Shown here one piece after another: positions 1-11,639 of a DNA stretch of 64,000 bases. The notes under the pieces are model-generated. The model did no database searches and was not told the DNA's origin. It saw only the letters and a program-made list of their open reading frames with translations. The first letter of the stretch is position 1. The number at the start of each line of letters is the position of its first letter. The translations under genes and the position numbers were made by a program. The DNA is taken from NCBI RefSeq assembly GCF_000702945.1, contig NZ_JNLE01000003.1, forward strand, positions 1,535,501 through 1,599,500. The letters run 5' to 3'. The stretch comes from Clostridium sp. KNHs205. Its GTDB lineage: Bacteria; Bacillota; Clostridia; Lachnospirales; Lachnospiraceae.

Positions 1-1
1 C

Positions 2-379
2 TTTGGATACTGTGAGAATTTAAAGGAGGCAGTGGTGGCTGGATCTGTGAAATCTATGGATTCTTATATATTTACGGATTGCCCTAAGCTTGAAAAGGTA
101 ACTCTGCAAAAGGGAATTCCTTTAGTTCCGGCCAGAATGTTTGTAAACTGTAAAAGTCTGAAATCTCTTGAGATTCCAAACAGTGTCTGGTTAATTGAAT
201 TTCAGGTGTTTATGGGATGTGAAGCATTAAAAAAAGTAACAATCCCCTCCAGTGTGACGTTTATCTACAACTACACCTTTAGTGGAAGTAATGACAAGCT
301 GGTTATCTACTGCACACCTGGTTCGACAATTGATAAATATGCGAAGGAAAATAAGATAAAGACTAAAAAGATTTCTTAG
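2..379 (+). CDS. BspA-like leucine-rich-repeat protein, C-terminal part (5' end outside window)
   Basis: The frame is open from the left edge, so this is the 3' end of a longer gene. The translation shows consecutive BspA/LRR_5-type repeats with the pattern 'F..C..L..V.I...V..I....F..C..L..V.IP': segments begin FGYCENLKEAVV, FTDCPKLEKVTL, FVNCKSLKSLEIP and FMGCEALKKVTIP. It ends with the usual capping strand, YCTPGSTIDKYAKENKI, which closes many BspA-like proteins. Such proteins are normally secreted or surface-attached and bind host or polymer surfaces; secretion cannot be judged here because the N-terminus is missing. No downstream gene is co-directional within 1 kb, and no clear terminator follows directly. 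Confidence 0.85.
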   Translation, partial: FGYCENLKEAVVAGSVKSMDSYIFTDCPKLEKVTLQKGIPLVPARMFVNCKSLKSLEIPNSVWLIEFQVFMGCEALKKVTIPSSVTFIYNYTFSGSNDKLVIYCTPGSTIDKYAKENKIKTKKIS

Positions 380-611
380 GATATAATAGATTTTACGATT
401 AAAACAGATTTGATTATCATCTGATAAAGGATGCAACTAATTAGTATATTTTCTGTTTCATTGCAGGACTATGTGTAGTAAATCAGGAACGATATTATTT
501 GACTTTTAAATGCCATCAAGGATAGTTATTATACTATTTTTAAATTACAATTTGATGCAAATGAACTATCTAATAGCACTGTAATTTATAAAGTAATAGT
601 AAAAAATTTAT

Positions 612-766
612 ACTTGCATATAAGTTGCGTATATACAAAATATATGTTAAAATATCATTTGTGCCATAAATCGTGTAAATCCTGAAACCCTTGAAAATAT
701 TAGGTTTTCAGAAAAACACAACCCCCATGACGCCTTTGCCACGGGGGTTGCATTAAAAAGGGGAGG
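612..766. repeat. Left copy of ~155-bp direct repeat flanking the ATPase/HNH island
   Basis: This copy matches 5251-5407 in order and spacing. The shared parts are a doubled TTGCGTATA motif, a TTGCGT-17-TAAAAT promoter-like pair, GTGCCATAAA exactly 49 bp after the repeat start in both copies, a stem-loop with different sequence but preserved pairing, and a 55-bp block (712-766 versus 5353-5407) that is identical. That block contains the hairpin AACCCCC...GGGGGTT. On the minus strand the hairpin is followed by GTGTTTTT, so it can act as a terminator read leftward. The two copies are 4,640 bp apart and enclose the defence-like genes. It may be an attachment-site or element-end sequence; no integrase is present in the window. 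Confidence 0.8.
625..653 (+). promoter_or_regulatory. Promoter-like pair inside left flanking repeat
   Basis: TTGCGT (625-630), a 17-bp spacer and TAAAAT (648-653). The same boxes with the same spacing occur in the right copy. It would drive a short transcript through two stem-loops; no open frame follows. Confidence 0.4.
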
Positions 767-870
767 CTATGCATTTAAGATTTCATAGTGTTCCATCATG
801 TAATATATGGTGCCCCAAGAGGGGATAAACAGGGATTTGAAATTCATCCGGTTTCGTCTTGTGATATCTA

Positions 871-893
871 ACTTGCGTATAAAGTTGCGTATA
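871..893 (+). repeat. Third TTGCGTATA-type doublet
   Basis: ACTTGCGTATAAAGTTGCGT repeats the doublet seen at the start of both flanking repeats (612 and 5251), with one extra base between the halves. Tandem short direct repeats near element ends resemble integrase arm-type binding sites, but this is inference. Confidence 0.45.
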
Positions 894-1028
894 TATTGTT
901 TTTGGTTAATGTAAATAATAATGATATTTCTATGGATAGTAAAAGATATACTTTATAATGTACATACGGAGGATGATTTTAAGGTTGAGGAAATGAAAAA
1001 GATTGCAAACTTATTTTAGCAAAGGAGA

Positions 1029-1060
1029 GCAGTTACTCTGGTTGGGGTAGCTGCTTTTTA
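1029..1060 (+). terminator. Rho-independent terminator
   Basis: The ten-base-pair stem GCAGTTACTC / GGGTAGCTGC (two G-T pairs) has a 6-base loop and is followed by TTTTTA. No complete gene lies directly upstream, so it probably belongs to a deleted or decayed unit of the island. Confidence 0.65.
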
Positions 1061-1078
1061 TTGTATAGCAGTCTTTTA

Positions 1079-1390
1079 ATAAACCACCTGCTATGCAGGT
1101 GTGTCCACAGTCGCTTTAGCTTCAAGTAAAAGCCCCACAGTTATGATAATGTTGTTTATTAACCATGTACTGAATAAAAGAGTTTTACTGATGCGAGCTG
1201 AGAGATTATAGTATTTCAACATCTCAAATAAAAGCTAAAGTGTTAGAACTGCAAAATACTAGAAATAGCTCGTAGAACAGCGAAGCAGGTTTGGCAAAAG
1301 TAGAATCTTTAGACAAGCCTTTAGGCTTTGCAGGTAATAGCCCCTTATAGGGGCAGAGCAAACCACCCGTTCAATGGGTGGTTATGATTA
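1079..1390. mobile_element. Hairpin-bounded non-autonomous element resembling IS200/IS605 ends
   Basis: About 310 bp without coding potential, starting with a hairpin CACCTGC-TAT-GCAGGTG (1085-1101) and ending with hairpins GCCCC-TTATA-GGGGC (1340-1354) and AACCACCC...GGGTGGTT (1361-1383) followed by ATGATTATG. Subterminal palindromes without inverted terminal repeats are typical of IS200/IS605 elements and their non-autonomous derivatives. The structured region before the right hairpin could be a relic of a TnpB guide RNA. No tnpA or tnpB frame is present. Confidence 0.45.
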
Positions 1391-1428
1391 TGTATAGCAT
1401 GAATAGTAAATCTTGAATATATGTAGAA

Positions 1429-1452
1429 ATATGTATACATATGGAGTATAAT
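1429..1452 (+). promoter_or_regulatory. Candidate promoter with overlapping palindrome, ATPase/HNH operon
   Basis: The perfect 14-bp palindrome ATATGTATACATAT (1429-1442) lies immediately upstream of a TATAAT -10 box (1447-1452), about 75 bp before the ATPase start. No good -35 box is visible. The layout suggests repression by a dimeric regulator bound in the promoter; no regulator gene is next to it. Confidence 0.4.
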
Positions 1453-1526
1453 TAATAACATAATTATCTTATCTTTGTGAGGTGTGTTGAAAAAATAAAA
1501 TTCATATTAATAAAAGGATGTGGCAA

Positions 1527-3518
1527 ATGGAACTAATATTTCTTTATATAAATAAATCTATAACAACATTTATAGAAAAGCAGGGATTTAACTTTTCTTC
1601 AAATTATTATTTCTATGTAGAAATTAATGATGGAATATATAGATTAAAACAGAAACTATGTGAAAAAAAAATACCTGATACTTTTTTTGATAAAACGTAT
1701 TGTATAACTAATATAACTGCTATTGTGGGAGAAAATGGTGCAGGAAAAAGTACTTTGTTAAATAATATAGCAAGTTTTCAAGGTAGCGTAAAGGATGGAA
1801 CACATGAGACAGAATATAAAGAACATTTTGCCGAGGAATATGAAAAAGATAAACAGATTGCAATATATAAGGAAGATGGTAGATTAATATGCTATCATAA
1901 TATAGATACCTTTGAAAATACGACAGGTATAGACTGTAGATATTTGTTTCAAGGATCACCAGAATTAATGTATTTAGTACAAAACAATATGGGGTTTGAA
2001 AATATTAGTAAAATAAGTTTAACAAATAGTATGTATACACAAAGAAATAGTGTATCAACGCATGGAAGCATAAGTGAAATCTCTTTAAATGTAAACACCT
2101 TAAATACGTTGAAAAATATGTTTTATAAAAAGAAGTGTAAAAAAGTAGATAGTTGTGCAGGTGGTTATTATGAATATCAAGATATTCTATGTTCATATAA
2201 GAAGGTTACTGATTTTCAGCAAATTGTAGATGTTCTTTATTTAAATTATTTACATGAGAATAAAGCAAATAGCATATTTGCAGACAACTTAAAATCAAGT
2301 TTAGAAATCAAATTTCAATCATTTCAGAAATGTTTGGATGATAAGTTTGGGGATATATTATCAGAGCATAATAAGGAGATAAGTTTGCAACTTCATTATA
2401 AAGCTACAAAAGGCTTATTAGAGAATTTTGATTTTGAATTGTTAAAAAAAGATTTATTTTGTATACCCTATATTAATTTATTATTTGAGTTGATTACTTA
2501 TTGTCGATATGATACCTACGAAGGTAATTCATCAATTAATAATAAGAATGATTTAAAAAGTTATCTAAAAAGATTTATTAATATGCTAAAAGAAAAAGAG
2601 AATGATTATGCTGCATTTTTTTTAGATGCGTTAGACGAGATAGAAGAATATGAAAAATGTTTAGATAATTGTGATATGTTACAATGTCTGCTTCCAATAA
2701 ACGATTTAGCGTATAGAACTTGTAAAAAAATAGAATATAATTCAAAACCATATTTTGATTTTCTAAGGTTAATTTATAAATCCGTTTTTATTCGGAAAAC
2801 ATCGTTTGTTTTGAAGTATATTGAAATTGGGGGTCTTGAACTGGCTTCTGGTGAAAGAGCGCTATTGAATTTCTTTTCATGGTTACATTTGGTGACATTC
2901 TTTAAATACTTAAGTGATGATGTACATGAGAGTTTAAGAGATAATGTTTTATTGCTCATTGATGAAATTGATTTATACTGTCATCCCCTATGGCAGCAAA
3001 AAATATTATACTATTTAATTGAAGAATTAAAGCTACAATTTGTGGGGAAAAAAGTACAGATAATTTTTACAACTCATAGCCCTATTGTATTATCTGACAT
3101 GCCAAAAGGGAATGTCATTTATCTAAAGAAGGAAGAGGCAGTAAATAGGTGCAGAATAGATGAGAAAGATAAGCATAGCGAAACATTTGGAGCAAGTATT
3201 TATAAATTGTTTAATGATGCTTTTTTCCTTGGGAAAAAAGGACAAATAGGGGAATTTGCTAGTTTGAAAATACAAAAGATAATAGATACAATAAAACCGG
3301 TAACTAATAAAGAGGAAGGGATCAAATATCCTCAACTTTCAGAAATTGAAGTCGAACGGTTAGAGAAGGAAATTGCATTGATTGGCGAAACGATAATAAG
3401 AGATAAGCTTTTTACAATGCTATATAAATGCAAATACAGTGGTTTAGGAGTAAAAGAGAAAAAAATAAGAGTATATGAAGAAAAGATAAAAAAGTTGCGT
3501 AATGGAGAAATAGAATGA
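1527..3518 (+). CDS. AAA/ABC-type ATPase, Septu PtuA-like defence protein
   Basis: A 663-residue SMC/ABC-like ATPase of the OLD/PtuA kind. Walker A GENGAGKST lies about 70 residues in, the ABC signature-like LASGERALL near 440, Walker B LLLIDEIDLY near 477 and the H-loop motif TTHSP near 517. A long, weakly conserved helical insert lies between the two halves. I chose the ATG at 1527 because AAAAGGATGT lies 10 bases upstream of it, whereas an ATG at 1518 would touch the ribosome site. The next gene overlaps by ATGA, so the two are translationally coupled. ATPase plus HNH nuclease is the Septu arrangement (PtuA/PtuB); known PtuA proteins sense phage and control the nuclease. The gene is markedly AT-rich compared with the surrounding core genes, which suggests transfer. 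The subtype is uncertain. Confidence 0.8.
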   Translation: MELIFLYINKSITTFIEKQGFNFSSNYYFYVEINDGIYRLKQKLCEKKIPDTFFDKTYCITNITAIVGENGAGKSTLLNNIASFQGSVKDGTHETEYKEHFAEEYEKDKQIAIYKEDGRLICYHNIDTFENTTGIDCRYLFQGSPELMYLVQNNMGFENISKISLTNSMYTQRNSVSTHGSISEISLNVNTLNTLKNMFYKKKCKKVDSCAGGYYEYQDILCSYKKVTDFQQIVDVLYLNYLHENKANSIFADNLKSSLEIKFQSFQKCLDDKFGDILSEHNKEISLQLHYKATKGLLENFDFELLKKDLFCIPYINLLFELITYCRYDTYEGNSSINNKNDLKSYLKRFINMLKEKENDYAAFFLDALDEIEEYEKCLDNCDMLQCLLPINDLAYRTCKKIEYNSKPYFDFLRLIYKSVFIRKTSFVLKYIEIGGLELASGERALLNFFSWLHLVTFFKYLSDDVHESLRDNVLLLIDEIDLYCHPLWQQKILYYLIEELKLQFVGKKVQIIFTTHSPIVLSDMPKGNVIYLKKEEAVNRCRIDEKDKHSETFGASIYKLFNDAFFLGKKGQIGEFASLKIQKIIDTIKPVTNKEEGIKYPQLSEIEVERLEKEIALIGETIIRDKLFTMLYKCKYSGLGVKEKKIRVYEEKIKKLRNGEIE

Positions 3519-4408
3519 TACCAATAAGATTTAGAAACAATGAAACGAAAACAGTAAATTCATTGTATCATACATTACTAAATATTAAATATCGACAGAA
3601 GAAACGCAAAGCATATATTTTTATGATAAAAAATATTAACACGTGGTGCGTAAATAATATCATTTTCAGTGGTCACGCTTACACGTTCCCTGAAATTATT
3701 CAAGCTGACTATGAGACAATAGAAAAAATTGCTCAAATAATTGATGCAGGAAAGAGTTTACCACTCTTGTATAAAAAGTACATAATTGAGTTTCTATATG
3801 CACATAGATTTCCAAGGCGAGAATTTTTGAGCGAGTTAGAAGTTACAGTATGTCCATACTGTAACAGAAATTTTGTAAACTCTGCTAGAAAAAGAACTAT
3901 GTGTGATTTGGATCATTTTTTTGATAAAGATACATATCCAATTTTAGCAGTGTCATTTTATAATATTGTTCCTGTGTGCCACTCATGTAATCATATAAAA
4001 GCAAGCCAAAGAATATCTTATTCCTCACATAATCAGAAGTATAAGACAGATGATTTAGTTACATTTGATTATTATATCAAAGGAATGGATTTTTTAGTGG
4101 ATAAGAAGCAGTTAGGAATTGAAATTGAAACCGCAATGGAATTGGAAGATAACGTTGATATATTAAAACTGCGAGAGGTATATCAGATACATACAGATGT
4201 TGTACAGGAATGTATCAAGAAGGCAATAATATTTGAACCAGAATATTTGAATTTTCTATATTATACTTATGAAGAGTTATTTGAATCAGAAGAAGAACTA
4301 TATAGAATTGTTTATGGAGATTATATTATGGAAGAAGCATATGGAAAAAGACCTTTAGCAAAACTGACTTCTGATATAATAAGTGATTTATTGGAGATAT
4401 ATGAATAA
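3515..4408 (+). CDS. HNH endonuclease, Septu PtuB-like
   Basis: A 297-residue protein with a zinc-stabilised HNH (beta-beta-alpha metal) nuclease core at about residues 112-165: CPYC (113-116), DLDHF (131-135) as the catalytic histidine region, and CHSCN (155-159) closing the zinc site with the conserved asparagine. This matches the HNH partner of Septu and of retron-associated PtuAB modules. No reverse transcriptase or retron RNA was seen nearby. The start overlaps the ATPase stop by four bases. The C-terminal half is helical and acidic without a recognised domain. Expected role: nucleic-acid cleavage when the ATPase is triggered by infection. Composition is AT-rich like the ATPase gene. Confidence 0.8.
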   Translation: MIPIRFRNNETKTVNSLYHTLLNIKYRQKKRKAYIFMIKNINTWCVNNIIFSGHAYTFPEIIQADYETIEKIAQIIDAGKSLPLLYKKYIIEFLYAHRFPRREFLSELEVTVCPYCNRNFVNSARKRTMCDLDHFFDKDTYPILAVSFYNIVPVCHSCNHIKASQRISYSSHNQKYKTDDLVTFDYYIKGMDFLVDKKQLGIEIETAMELEDNVDILKLREVYQIHTDVVQECIKKAIIFEPEYLNFLYYTYEELFESEEELYRIVYGDYIMEEAYGKRPLAKLTSDIISDLLEIYE

Positions 4409-4518
4409 AGATTATAAATAATTATTATCGGTATAAGAATAGATGTAGAACCATTGTAATGGGAAGCTGATGCTGATTTATATTTAGTTTAGTATAACCA
4501 AAAGAGGGAGATAAATTA

Positions 4519-5031
4519 ATGAGGAAAAAAGCAAGTAGTACGGGCAATAGTGATTTGCTATATGAAACAAATATAGTCTTTCCTTTAAAAAAGCCTGAGA
4601 CATATTTTGATAGTCTAGTTAATATAAACGTTAATAATTTAAGAGAATATTACAGTATGGTTAAGTCACATACCAATAAGAGCTTTTGGATAGCGTTAGT
4701 TTTAACTGTTGCAGGTTTTTTTCTTATTATTGGCGGAATATCACTCATATTTTTTGATTTAGTAGATCAAAATATTTCAGTGCTTATTACTATTTCGGGA
4801 GTTATAACTGAATTTATTTCAGCAGCATCCTTTTATCTTTATAATAGCACTGTAAAGCAATTAAAGGAATACTTTGATAGCTTAGTTCATGTACAAAAGG
4901 TATTATTGAGTTTTAAGGTTATAGAAGATGCTAAAGGAACTACGGAAGAAAGCAAAAATATAATGATGAATAAAGCATTGGAGTACATATGGGGGGATAG
5001 ACCTAATTTAAGTACAAATCAGAAAGAATAA
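4519..5031 (+). CDS. Two-helix membrane protein, TRADD-N-associated-domain-like
   Basis: A 170-residue protein with two predicted transmembrane helices at about 56-78 and 87-108. They are preceded by a helix 'YFDSLVNINVNNLREYYSM' and followed by an amphipathic helix containing 'STVKQLKEYFDSL'. This pattern resembles the small 'TRADD-N-associated membrane domain' proteins described from bacterial conflict loci; I recognise it by resemblance only. RBS AGAGGGAG lies 8 bases before the ATG. It sits 110 bp after the HNH gene, same strand, inside the same pair of direct repeats, with the same AT-rich composition. It may be a third component, such as a membrane-acting effector or anchor of the system, or an independent cargo gene. 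Confidence 0.65.
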   Translation: MRKKASSTGNSDLLYETNIVFPLKKPETYFDSLVNINVNNLREYYSMVKSHTNKSFWIALVLTVAGFFLIIGGISLIFFDLVDQNISVLITISGVITEFISAASFYLYNSTVKQLKEYFDSLVHVQKVLLSFKVIEDAKGTTEESKNIMMNKALEYIWGDRPNLSTNQKE

Positions 5032-5048
5032 AACAATAAAGAGAGTAG

Positions 5049-5174
5049 ATAATCGAAAAAATCATTTATGATGTATCTGTGGATAGAAGCACAAATGATA
5101 CTTGTGGAATGGGAGAAGTGATTAATAAAGCCTATAGTGTTTTGATTGAAGCTACTAATAGTAGTATGTTATGA
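5049..5174 (+). pseudogene. Short gene remnant after the membrane protein
   Basis: An open frame of about 41 codons with protein-like composition (includes NDTCGMGEVINKAYSVL) but no ribosome site; the only internal ATG leaves about 20 codons. A stop lies immediately upstream in frame. It looks like an interior or C-terminal scrap of a lost cargo gene. I do not recognise the family. Confidence 0.3.
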
Positions 5175-5250
5175 GTACTATAATAAGATATATTCAAATT
5201 ATACTTGTTATATAAAATCTCGTAATTTGCATCCATCAAAATAAATAAAA

Positions 5251-5407
5251 ACTTGCGTATAAGTTGCGTATAAACTATTTTTATGATAAAATACTCTCTG
5301 TGCCATAAAAGGTTAAAAACGCTGAAAGCCTTGATTCATAAGGCTTCCATAAAAAAACACAACCCCCATGACGCCTTTGCCACGGGGGTTGCATTAAAAA
5401 GGGGAGG
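5251..5407. repeat. Right copy of ~155-bp direct repeat flanking the island
   Basis: Same order as the left copy: TTGCGTATA doublet, TTGCGT (5264-5269)/TAAAAT (5287-5292) with 17-bp spacing, GTGCCATAAA at offset 49, a stem-loop GAAAGCCTT...AAGGCTTCC that replaces a different but also paired stem in the left copy, and the identical 55-bp block 5353-5407 with the AACCCCC/GGGGGTT hairpin. Preserved pairing with changed bases points to RNA-level structure in at least the middle part. Confidence 0.8.
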
Positions 5408-5637
5408 ATAAGTATTTAACTTTTCTTTGGTATTGGCTGCACAGAAAACTGTACAGTCGGTCATCCTTTATGCTGGAGGGGGGATCCAGCGGTTTCAGAT
5501 GGCACCGGTTAATCTAAATCATCGACGAATTAGATTAATTATAGTATGATGCAATATTTCTAAGATTATACATAAATAAAAAATATTATGTAAAAAATCT
5601 ATAGAGAATCAAAAGATGATTAAAGGAAGGTAGAACA

Positions 5638-6141
5638 ATGAGTTTATTAACTGAGTGGAGGGACTTTGCATATGCCCTTGACACAAACCAGAAAGAAGGC
5701 CAGCTGTTTTGGGCTAATTATTTTAATGTAGAGCAGGGAATCTATGAGAAGATTCTTGCAGAGCCCGAAGTTGTTGTAGAAGGAACCGTAGCTGAGCTTG
5801 CAGTAAAATACGGCACTACCATTTCACTTATGACAGGATTCTTAGATGGCATCAACGAGAGCCTTGTGAAAGAAAACCCTATTGAAGAAATGGAAGAGAC
5901 AACAGTTGTAAATCTTGGATTTGATAAAGAGATGCTGTATAAGAACATGGTAGAAGCGAAAGCAGAATGGCTCTATCAACTTCCTGTCTGGGACAGCCTG
6001 TTATCTGAGGAGAAAAGAAAAGAGCTCTATCTTGAGCAGAAGAAATCTAAAACTGTAGTCAAAGAGAAAAAAGTAGGAAGAAACGATCCCTGTACCTGCG
6101 GAAGCGGCAAGAAATACAAATTCTGCTGCGGGAAAGCTTAA
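5638..6141 (+). CDS. SEC-C motif protein
   Basis: A 167-residue protein ending in a SEC-C zinc-binding motif, [16 protein letters not shown], at about residues 150-166. This is the motif found at the SecA C-terminus and in many small proteins, where it binds zinc and may contact ribosomes or SecB-like partners. The N-terminal 140 residues are helical and match no family I know with certainty; similar SEC-C proteins of this size are common in Lachnospiraceae. RBS AAGGAAGG lies 9 bases before the ATG. It stands alone and is followed by a strong terminator. Confidence 0.85.
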
Positions 6142-6194
6142 TATAAGCGGTTTGTAGAATACTAGATAAATAAAAAGTGGTATTTCCACTCTTT

Positions 6195-6227
6195 GTCCAC
6201 GCATTATTGAATGCGTGGACATTTTTA
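6195..6227 (+). terminator. Rho-independent terminator of the SEC-C gene
   Basis: Perfect 11-bp stem GTCCACGCATT / AATGCGTGGAC with loop ATTG, followed by ATTTTTAT. It lies 54 bp after the stop codon. Confidence 0.9.
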
Positions 6228-6263
6228 TGAATAAGTTTTATAAGACAAATATATATAAATACT

Positions 6264-6308
6264 CTCCCCTTAGATAGAATATGAATTCTAACCAGTGGGG
6301 ATTTTTAT
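6264..6308 (+). terminator. Second stem-loop terminator candidate
   Basis: CCCC (6266-6269) pairs with GGGG (6297-6300) around an inner paired segment (GAAT...ATTC), followed by ATTTTTATTTT. It lies between convergent genes and backs up the terminator at 6195. Confidence 0.55.
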
Positions 6309-6373
6309 TTTGTTGTCAAACTAATATCTATTTTACCTGCAAATTCTTAAAGAGAATAAATCTTAATTCTTGA

Positions 6374-7195
6374 TTAATTTTCGTATACGGTTATTGGTAT
6401 AACTATTTTTTCCTTACTGTTCACGGTAGTAATAATAATATCGGCATCCCCTTCTTCTATTGCTGTTATGTACAGAGGAATTTTATAACCATCCCATTCT
6501 CCAAATTCAGCAGATGCAACAGGCTCATAATAACCACGAGAAAGTTTAATGGTACATGATAAGCTTTCTTCGTCATCAGTTTTTAAAGTAATGATAATCT
6601 TAGCTTTATCGCCGACAGACAATTCAAGCTTACTTTTATTGGCTGACAGAGTTTGAGCTTTGACAGTTATTTTACATGTGTATTTTTTCTTATCAACAGT
6701 TGCGGTGATAGTTACAGTGCCTGGTTTTTTTGCTGTTACCTTTCCTTTGGAAGAAACCGTTGCAACCGCCTTGTTGCTGGAAGACCATGTGGGAATTCCC
6801 ATTATACCATTCAATTTCAAAATTGTTGATTTTCCTGCGATAAGAGTCTTTTTACCAGGAAGGCCGAGGGGCTTGCTAACATCATGTTCGTATACAATTA
6901 CTTCCTCTGAGGGTTTTACTGTAATCACCCATAAAGCTGCATTATTACCGTATTTTGCTTTTATTACTACAACACCGACACCTTTTCCTGTAACCAGTCC
7001 TTTGCTTGAGACAGTAGCAATAGATTTGTCACTACTGCTCCAGGTTACTGTTTTCTTTGTGTCAACAGATAATTGCTTCGTCCAGCCTATACACATAGTT
7101 ATAAGTTCATCAGCTTTAGCAGGTATTGACTGGAATGCGCTTATAACTAATATTATAGATAAAATAAAGATATATATTTTCTTTCTGTTCTTCAA
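6374..7195 (-). CDS. Secreted Ig-like (BIG_2) domain protein
   Basis: I place the start at the TTG at 7195. It is preceded by GGAG five bases upstream, directly after the stem-loop GTGTGC...GCACAC, and gives a clean signal peptide (MKNRKKIYIF, hydrophobic core, cleavage after SIPAKA). An ATG at 7252 would place the stem-loop inside the coding region and bury the signal. The mature protein holds two bacterial Ig-like group 2 domains, each with the WSSSxxxxATVSSKGxVT signature (about residues 50-100 and 135-185), then a C-terminal beta-rich region without a clear family. The protein (273 aa) is probably cell-surface or extracellular. Function beyond adhesion or carbohydrate contact cannot be stated. 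Confidence 0.8.
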   Translation of the reverse strand: MKNRKKIYIFILSIILVISAFQSIPAKADELITMCIGWTKQLSVDTKKTVTWSSSDKSIATVSSKGLVTGKGVGVVVIKAKYGNNAALWVITVKPSEEVIVYEHDVSKPLGLPGKKTLIAGKSTILKLNGIMGIPTWSSSNKAVATVSSKGKVTAKKPGTVTITATVDKKKYTCKITVKAQTLSANKSKLELSVGDKAKIIITLKTDDEESLSCTIKLSRGYYEPVASAEFGEWDGYKIPLYITAIEEGDADIIITTVNSKEKIVIPITVYEN

Positions 7196-10112: not shown

Positions 10113-11639
10113 ATGAGAAAACGCGATATGTATATAAAGCCCGGAAAATATATGGGCATGAGAACGAAAAGAAAAAGAAGGATACCAAGAATTATCATAT
10201 TATCAGTTACCGCAATAACCGCTATTGTATTTATAGCCTTGTGGCAGTTTCGAATCATAGAACCCGGTAATTTTATTTACTCAATCTTAGACAGAGTGAA
10301 ACAACCAAATATAATATCAGAAGACATAAAGGGAGAACAGGATTCTTCGAAAGTGCCGGATGGAACAAAAAAGGAAGGAATAGCAGAGCTTAATGAACAG
10401 AATGAGGTAAAGCAGCACACGGCTTTCAATACAGCCGAACAGGAAACAGCTGAGAATAACTCGGCCACTGATACTGATGAGAACTTTGGGGAAACGAGCG
10501 AAGACTTGGAAAACAGCGCGCAGGAAGCCTCAGTAAACAGCCAGAGACCTCTGACAGAAGATCTTATCAATAAAACCTCAGAGCCTGTACGTGGTATATA
10601 TGTTTCCGGAGCAAGAGCCGGAATCGATGAATATATGCAGGAGTTGACAGCTCTGGCAGAAAATACAGAAGTAAATGCCATGGTAATCGATATTAAGAAT
10701 GATTTTGGTGAAATTACCTATAAGACAGAACTTTCTTTGGCGGTAGATATTGGAGCCGGAACGGGATATATAAAGGATATAAAGAAACTTGTAGAGCAGT
10801 TAAAGGAGAAAGATATTTATCTCATAGCCAGAGTTGTATCCTTTAAAGATCCCTTATTAGCAAAAGAAAGAAAAGATTTGAGCTTACGTGATAAGAACGG
10901 TGTGATATTTAAAGACAAGAACGGGGACAGCTGGGTAAATCCCTATAAACGGGAGGTTTGGGATTATCTTATAGATATCGGAAAAGAAGCCGCTGAAACA
11001 GGCTTTGATGAAATACAATTCGATTATATACGCTTCTCCACAGATCCGGGGATGAAGAACGTTAATTACGGCGCAGAGGCCAGAAATAAGAGCAGGATTG
11101 ATATTATAACGGAATTCACCAAATATGCCTGCGATAATCTGAAACCTCTTGGAGTAAAGGTTTCGGCAGATGTGTACGGAACGATTATCAGAAGTTCTGT
11201 AGATGCAGAAATTGTAGGACAGGACTATGTAGCTATGGCAAAATATCTGGATTTTATTTGTCCTATGATATATCCTTCTCATTATGCAGAGGGCTCCTAT
11301 GGAATTGATTATCCGGATATGAAGCCTTATGATACCATACTGGCAGCATTAAAGGAATCAAAGCTTGTACTGGAAGAAGGAATTAATAATGAAACTGCTG
11401 AAGTAGCAGTGGCTGAAGGAAAAGAAGCCGAGGAAGAAGAAGCCGACATAAAAACAACAGCAAAGGTAAGACCCTGGTTACAGGATTTTACTGCCACCTG
11501 GGTGAAACACCATACAGAATACGGTCAGGAGGAAATAAGGGCACAGATAAAGGCGGTATACGATGCCGGATATACAGAATGGATTCTGTGGAACGGCAGT
11601 AATAATTATACGGAAGCAGCTCTTGATAAGACAGATTAA
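10113..11639 (+). CDS. DUF4015 putative glycoside hydrolase, membrane-anchored
   Basis: A 508-residue protein with a positively charged N-terminus, one transmembrane segment (about 29-49, RIIILSVTAITAIVFIALWQF), a Glu/Asn/Thr-rich linker to about residue 150, then a TIM-barrel-like domain of the DUF4015/GHL type. Marker stretches are GIYVSGARAG, AMVIDIKNDFGEI, DEIQFDYIRFS and SADVYGTI, ending with YTEWILWNGSNNY. The family is found in sporulating and anaerobic Firmicutes and is thought to act on a polysaccharide outside the membrane; activity is unproven. An acidic insert (EGKEAEEEEADIKTTAK) interrupts the barrel near residue 440. The ribosome site before 10113 is weak; the ATGs at 10128 or 10152 are alternatives. 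Confidence 0.82.
   Translation: MRKRDMYIKPGKYMGMRTKRKRRIPRIIILSVTAITAIVFIALWQFRIIEPGNFIYSILDRVKQPNIISEDIKGEQDSSKVPDGTKKEGIAELNEQNEVKQHTAFNTAEQETAENNSATDTDENFGETSEDLENSAQEASVNSQRPLTEDLINKTSEPVRGIYVSGARAGIDEYMQELTALAENTEVNAMVIDIKNDFGEITYKTELSLAVDIGAGTGYIKDIKKLVEQLKEKDIYLIARVVSFKDPLLAKERKDLSLRDKNGVIFKDKNGDSWVNPYKREVWDYLIDIGKEAAETGFDEIQFDYIRFSTDPGMKNVNYGAEARNKSRIDIITEFTKYACDNLKPLGVKVSADVYGTIIRSSVDAEIVGQDYVAMAKYLDFICPMIYPSHYAEGSYGIDYPDMKPYDTILAALKESKLVLEEGINNETAEVAVAEGKEAEEEEADIKTTAKVRPWLQDFTATWVKHHTEYGQEEIRAQIKAVYDAGYTEWILWNGSNNYTEAALDKTD

Follow-up and report, generated by a model that had tools for sequence, protein, structure and literature searches.

A Septu-like ATPase/HNH gene pair in Clostridium sp. 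KNHs205 and its probable passenger, a PF20712 membrane protein

Our subject is a three-gene cassette in a 64,000-nucleotide stretch of DNA from Clostridium sp. KNHs205 (contig NZ_JNLE01000003.1, positions 1,535,501 to 1,599,500), hereafter called the window. Genes A, B, and C encode an ATPase, an HNH nuclease, and a two-helix membrane protein. We think it likely that A and B form a Septu-like (PDC-M62) anti-phage module, and that C, from a membrane protein family that shifts between various defence and non-defence contexts, was carried in on the same AT-rich cassette and is dispensable to the A-B machine. The data show sequence families, motifs, the fold of a model of B, gene order, and no C in any other B locus searched. 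How A and B assemble, what triggers them, what they cut, and any action against phages are inferred. The three-gene observation itself, with each gene at its place and bearing its motifs, is confirmed and is not due to chance.

Genes A and B resemble PtuA and PtuB

Gene A (1527 to 3518, + strand) encodes a 663-residue ATP-binding cassette (ABC)-type ATPase. We set the start at 1527 because, in the alignment, the relatives start from the residue that this position encodes; M1 is invariant among them, and E2 and L3 nearly so. Note that the open reading frame (ORF) caller places the start 9 bases earlier, at 1518. The preliminary description, made from the DNA alone, claimed Walker A, LASGER, and Walker B motifs. 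All were found (Walker A GENGAGKST, signature LASGER, Walker B LLLIDE), together with TTHSP. In 12 aligned sequences, including that of the window, there is no variation at G68, N70, G71, G73, K74, G442, E443, D479, E480, S518, and P519, and almost none at H517. PADLOC assigns A to PDC-M62A (2.5e-86, residues 1-639, nearly the full length) and, with a lower score, to PtuA (4e-23). A sequence search of the PDB also matched PtuA chains. Hence, A is a PtuA-type ABC ATPase by its motifs and matches.

Gene B (3515 to 4408, + strand) encodes a 297-residue HNH nuclease and overlaps A through ATGA. The expected CPYC, DLDHF, and CHSCN motifs are present and, in 40 aligned sequences, C113, C116, H134, N150, C155, C158, and N159 are invariant. 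Again, PADLOC favours PDC-M62 (PDC-M62B 1.3e-51, residues 19-292, nearly the full length; PtuB 1e-8). The predicted structure of B has a mean predicted local distance difference test (pLDDT) score of 93.5. Its fold, compared by a second-look aligner among folds ranked high by Foldseek, matches the small chains of Septu and retron complexes, which we identify as PtuB from their length and the entry titles. The model thus has a predicted PtuB-type HNH fold with the catalytic HNH residues.

The Septu-like pair of the preliminary description is therefore upheld by PADLOC, PDB sequence matches, and the fold of B. The genes are adjacent here, and an A-like gene adjoins B in 103 of 107 B loci (92 in the order A-B and 11 in the order B-A). 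The reverse order, HNH first and ATPase second, was seen in some Paenibacillus and Streptococcus loci (L087, L101, L104, L110, and others; 11/107 overall).

Compared with known systems, the best full-length matches of both proteins are to PDC-M62, whose genes are also adjacent. Here, unlike in that system, gene C follows; the PADLOC matches name only PDC-M62A and PDC-M62B. With Septu, including the PtuAB of retrons Ec78 and Ec83, the locus shares an ABC-type ATPase and an HNH nuclease, overlapping genes, the fold of B, and the PtuA match of A. It differs in weaker sequence scores, in larger proteins (663 and 297 residues, compared to 456-552 for PtuA and 205-258 for PtuB chains), and in having no reverse transcriptase-sized ORF beside the pair. 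On the last point we reject a type I-A retron, which would carry a reverse transcriptase and msr-msd beside PtuAB. On the + strand between 380 and 5637 no ORF of at least 60 residues exists besides A, B, and C, and the - strand has ORFs of 60-80 residues only; no search with reverse transcriptase profiles was made. A search of positions 1-7000 of the window against Rfam, up to an expect value (E) of 1, gave no match. In the PADLOC paper, the portion covering Septu type II describes it with a reverse transcriptase, not a membrane protein (PMC8565338). Overall, A-B looks like an ordinary gene pair of the Septu anti-phage kind.

Gene C does not recur with the pair

Gene C (4519 to 5031, + strand) begins 110 bp past B. 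Its 170-residue product was described as a two-helix protein akin to TRADD-N-associated membrane proteins. This holds: the match to PF20712 (CyanoTRADDas_TM) has an E of 4.8e-17 and scores 62.3 bits, where the cut-off is 24.3. The profile searches that had been called for place A and B with PtuA and PtuB, and better with PDC-M62, and C above the threshold of its family. Other PF20712 proteins are mostly longer (155-416 residues), and C is without their N-terminal extension. No TRADD-N partner was seen among the ORFs beside C. A SLATT-type two-transmembrane (2TM) effector was ruled out (SLATT_6, 12.6 bits against a cut-off of 27.1); the PADLOC 2TM Effector match has an E of 0.014. Relatives of C gave no match in plasmids, phages, or viral contigs (where close relatives only were sought). 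We found no literature under CyanoTRADDas or PF20712, while TRADD-N conflict systems are treated in parts of two papers (PMC7159879, PMC8195603).

In a three-gene Septu variant, the membrane gene should recur with the pair elsewhere. The 107 B loci, containing 103 distinct B sequences, comprise 11 Lachnospiraceae regions, 80 from named genomes (the best 80 of 297 relatives), and 16 viral contigs. The family scan for the pair matched 14 other genomes, of which 10 are covered, as 11 regions; G048, G052, G148, and G313 (weak) were left out, as were weak second places in G000, G377, G181, and G186 taken by themselves. Whole loci were searched, and 101 of the 107 extend at least 1.5 kb past B. Note that, in the 11 B-A loci, A itself occupies the stretch immediately 3' of B. 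The C-family profile combines C with 23 ORFs taken from 22 loci and, as a control, recovers C in the window at 9.7e-50. With E up to 1, it found a C-family ORF in none of the 107 loci. The closest intact pairs, where B is 57-62% identical, have no C. A weak C-like match (E 7e-4), around 5 kb from B in L144, disappeared, even at E up to 1, once the fuller profile was used. Nor was an alternative shared third gene apparent: on reading their sequences, seven ORFs adjoining B in Lachnospiraceae regions look mutually unlike.

The search for relatives of C took in overlapping sets of 397 family, 15 genus, 398 phylum, and 344 order genomes. The family scan matched 11 other genomes; L075 and L076 were judged by eye to be unrelated proteins, membrane or solute-binding, and dropped despite phmmer values of 4.7e-6 and 1.9e-5. 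There were 10 other matches in the phylum scan, where five under the cut-off were left out. From the order scan, the weak G890 was left out, and two matches were genomes already covered. In total, 24 C-family loci were read, two of them weak. L194 and L195 (25.6 and 24.5 bits; cut-off 24.3) fail the C profile at 1e-3, yet are counted in the 24. None of these loci has a B homologue; weak A-profile matches occur in three (L073, L194, and L079).

The preliminary description had proposed that the membrane protein is a third component, in a variant layout, and that its recurrence be counted. Because 0/107 B loci carry C and 0/24 C loci carry B, this proposal is unsupported, and C as a general third component is ruled out. 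In our sample, the membrane gene is instead found with unrelated cargo, at least as often as with the pair, which is the outcome that the preliminary description had named as refuting its idea. We conclude that C is probably a neighbour, accessory or passenger, rather than a fixed third part. That C takes part in the action of A-B is possible, with no support from recurrence.

Relatives of C have mixed neighbours

What, then, accompanies C elsewhere? From the C loci, 27 proteins (one a C relative) were searched against families, part of them also with PADLOC. The closest C relative found (L209, 46% identity over 134 residues) is upstream of a protein that matches NB-ARC (1.1e-5); a 71-residue ORF separates the two. 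In L077, a relative with 35% identity over 144 aligned residues has as its neighbour a two-gene unit that includes an NsnA-like GmrSD_N protein. Other relatives lie about 65 bp from an SduA-like gene (L067), about 240 bp from a PDC-S06-like ATPase (L073), and about 2.6 kb from a GmrSD_N gene (L192). Twice, a TIR domain is fused to the PF20712 membrane domain (L066, 5029-6279; L069, 5564-6766). L069 also carries a ThsB-like TIR gene nearby. Of four congeners with a C relative, three (L078-L080) have it among shared neighbours that, by eye, have no look of defence. These mixed contexts fit a membrane module that is widespread and has links to defence in part of its settings.

Two ideas give C a larger role. 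First, C could be a functional third component of a rare Septu variant: a membrane effector or anchor, coupling activation of the A-B nuclease to membrane damage. The low G+C and repeat-bounded cassette that C shares with A and B (see below) are consistent with this, as are the intact state of C, its place on the same strand 110 bp past B, and relatives fused to TIR or near SduA-like, NsnA-like, PDC-S06-like, and NB-ARC genes. Against it stand the two recurrence counts, the NB-ARC gene next to the closest relative, and the congeners with neighbours of no defensive appearance. We regard this role as unlikely. Second, PF20712 two-helix proteins could be plug-in membrane modules, taken up by Septu-like, SduA-like, NsnA/GmrSD-like, NB-ARC, and TIR systems, and adding a membrane-damaging or anchoring step, here to A-B. 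We hold this broader idea to be equally doubtful.

How the pair may act

If A and B work like the Septu and retron PtuAB complexes whose structures are solved, A would be an ATP-binding scaffold carrying the HNH nuclease B. The scaffold would keep B inactive until infection. Infection would then free B to cut nucleic acid, either phage DNA or host tRNA, and phage growth would stop. C would have arrived with the pair on one AT-rich cassette bounded by two repeat copies, and A-B would not need it. Precedents appear in sections of recent papers. For Septu EcB88, the Walker motifs of PtuA and the HNH motif of PtuB are reported to be required, and host tRNA-Tyr to be cut on infection (PMC13096335). 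Retron-Eco7 PtuAB is described as depleting tRNA-Tyr, and the Septu of E. coli ATCC25922 as acting on DNA (both PMC11555353). For Ec83, infection is reported to release PtuAB from the retron complex (PMC12948488).

Several points weigh against our interpretation. The PDC-M62 scores of A and B are far better than their PtuA and PtuB scores. Against NCBIfam equivalog models, A reaches 70 bits where the PtuA cut-off, in a model titled for the retron Ec78 form, is 500, and B reaches 17.1 bits where the PtuB cut-off is 150. Sequence identity in the fold match of B is just 11-15%. Anti-phage activity of A-B is predicted by analogy. C is intact, on the same strand, and downstream, preceded by a stretch resembling a ribosome-binding site (by eye), and may thus cooperate with A-B in this host. 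In two C-family loci, L073 and L194, a generic ABC-type ATPase lies no more than about 250 bp away.

That A and B are a non-defence HNH/ATPase pair, with a role on plasmids or in DNA repair, for example, has in its favour that PDC-M62 is only a candidate defence type, its name found in the literature in a single genome survey, and is very improbable given the fold of B, the PtuA matches of A, the patchy spread of the pair (15/397 family genomes, several weak or partial), its occurrence at 16 loci of viral contigs, some of them near-identical, and the 203 duplicate Septu and PDC-M62 PADLOC calls tallied in part of a study of the Bacillus cereus group (PMC11811056). Relatives of B were also found in 27 plasmid records and one phage record, every one below 60% identity.

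The cassette occupies a variable site

The G+C content of A, B, and C is 0.273, 0.290, and 0.292 respectively, while the mean over the 44 window ORFs of at least 150 residues, these three included, is 0.404. Copies of a direct repeat of about 190 bp, both on the + strand, bracket the cassette at 601-789 and 5240-5430; positions 712-766 are identical to 5353-5407 (55 bp). Because low G+C is common to all three genes, and because they lie between two repeat copies, A, B, and C probably arrived together as one piece. Eight congeners have counterparts of the right copy, upstream of a gene that we take to be SEC-C-like, named from its C-terminal motif. In genome G014 (L041), regions matching the left end (91%) and right side (93%) of the window bracket different cargo, which by eye includes a large surface protein and two-component-like genes. 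Repeat copies are near both cargo ends (4138-4326 and 11416-11469), the left one short and degenerate. Hence, with different cargo held between matching flanks with repeats, the site looks like an insertion hotspot. Within the cassette, just upstream of A, is a probable transposase remnant (1070-1390, + strand, by eye). Two short, incomplete copies of it occur at other places in the genome, and it presumably resembles the end of an IS200/IS605 element.

A strongly conserved, structured element (5293-5546), to which the direct repeats belong, lies near the SEC-C-like gene or upstream of it, with copies in L041-L049 and L212-L221. Beside it, at 5264, is a promoter-like TTGCGT-17-TAAAAT. In one hairpin, six pairs show pairing-preserving changes on both sides, in 3-4 of nine sequences. 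A 35-base core, allowing at most three mismatches, is in 11 of 299 Lachnospiraceae genomes, our own included; the backward-pattern control gave 0 among the matches listed. The minus strand folds better (z -6.7, compared to -3.4). No Rfam match overlaps the element or its copies; a Clostridiales-1 RNA was found elsewhere in L214. Because L215 has the SEC-C-like gene on the opposite strand, and none was seen in L214, the element may be a separate small RNA. It may be a more novel object than the A-B-C cassette beside it.

Implications

By the fold of its HNH protein, the candidate defence type PDC-M62 falls structurally with Septu. The locus also carries a caution: a membrane gene adjoining a defence pair does not, by itself, make a new component. 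If C does act with the pair, nuclease immunity would be tied to a membrane family with other members that are fused to TIR domains or encoded beside an NB-ARC protein.
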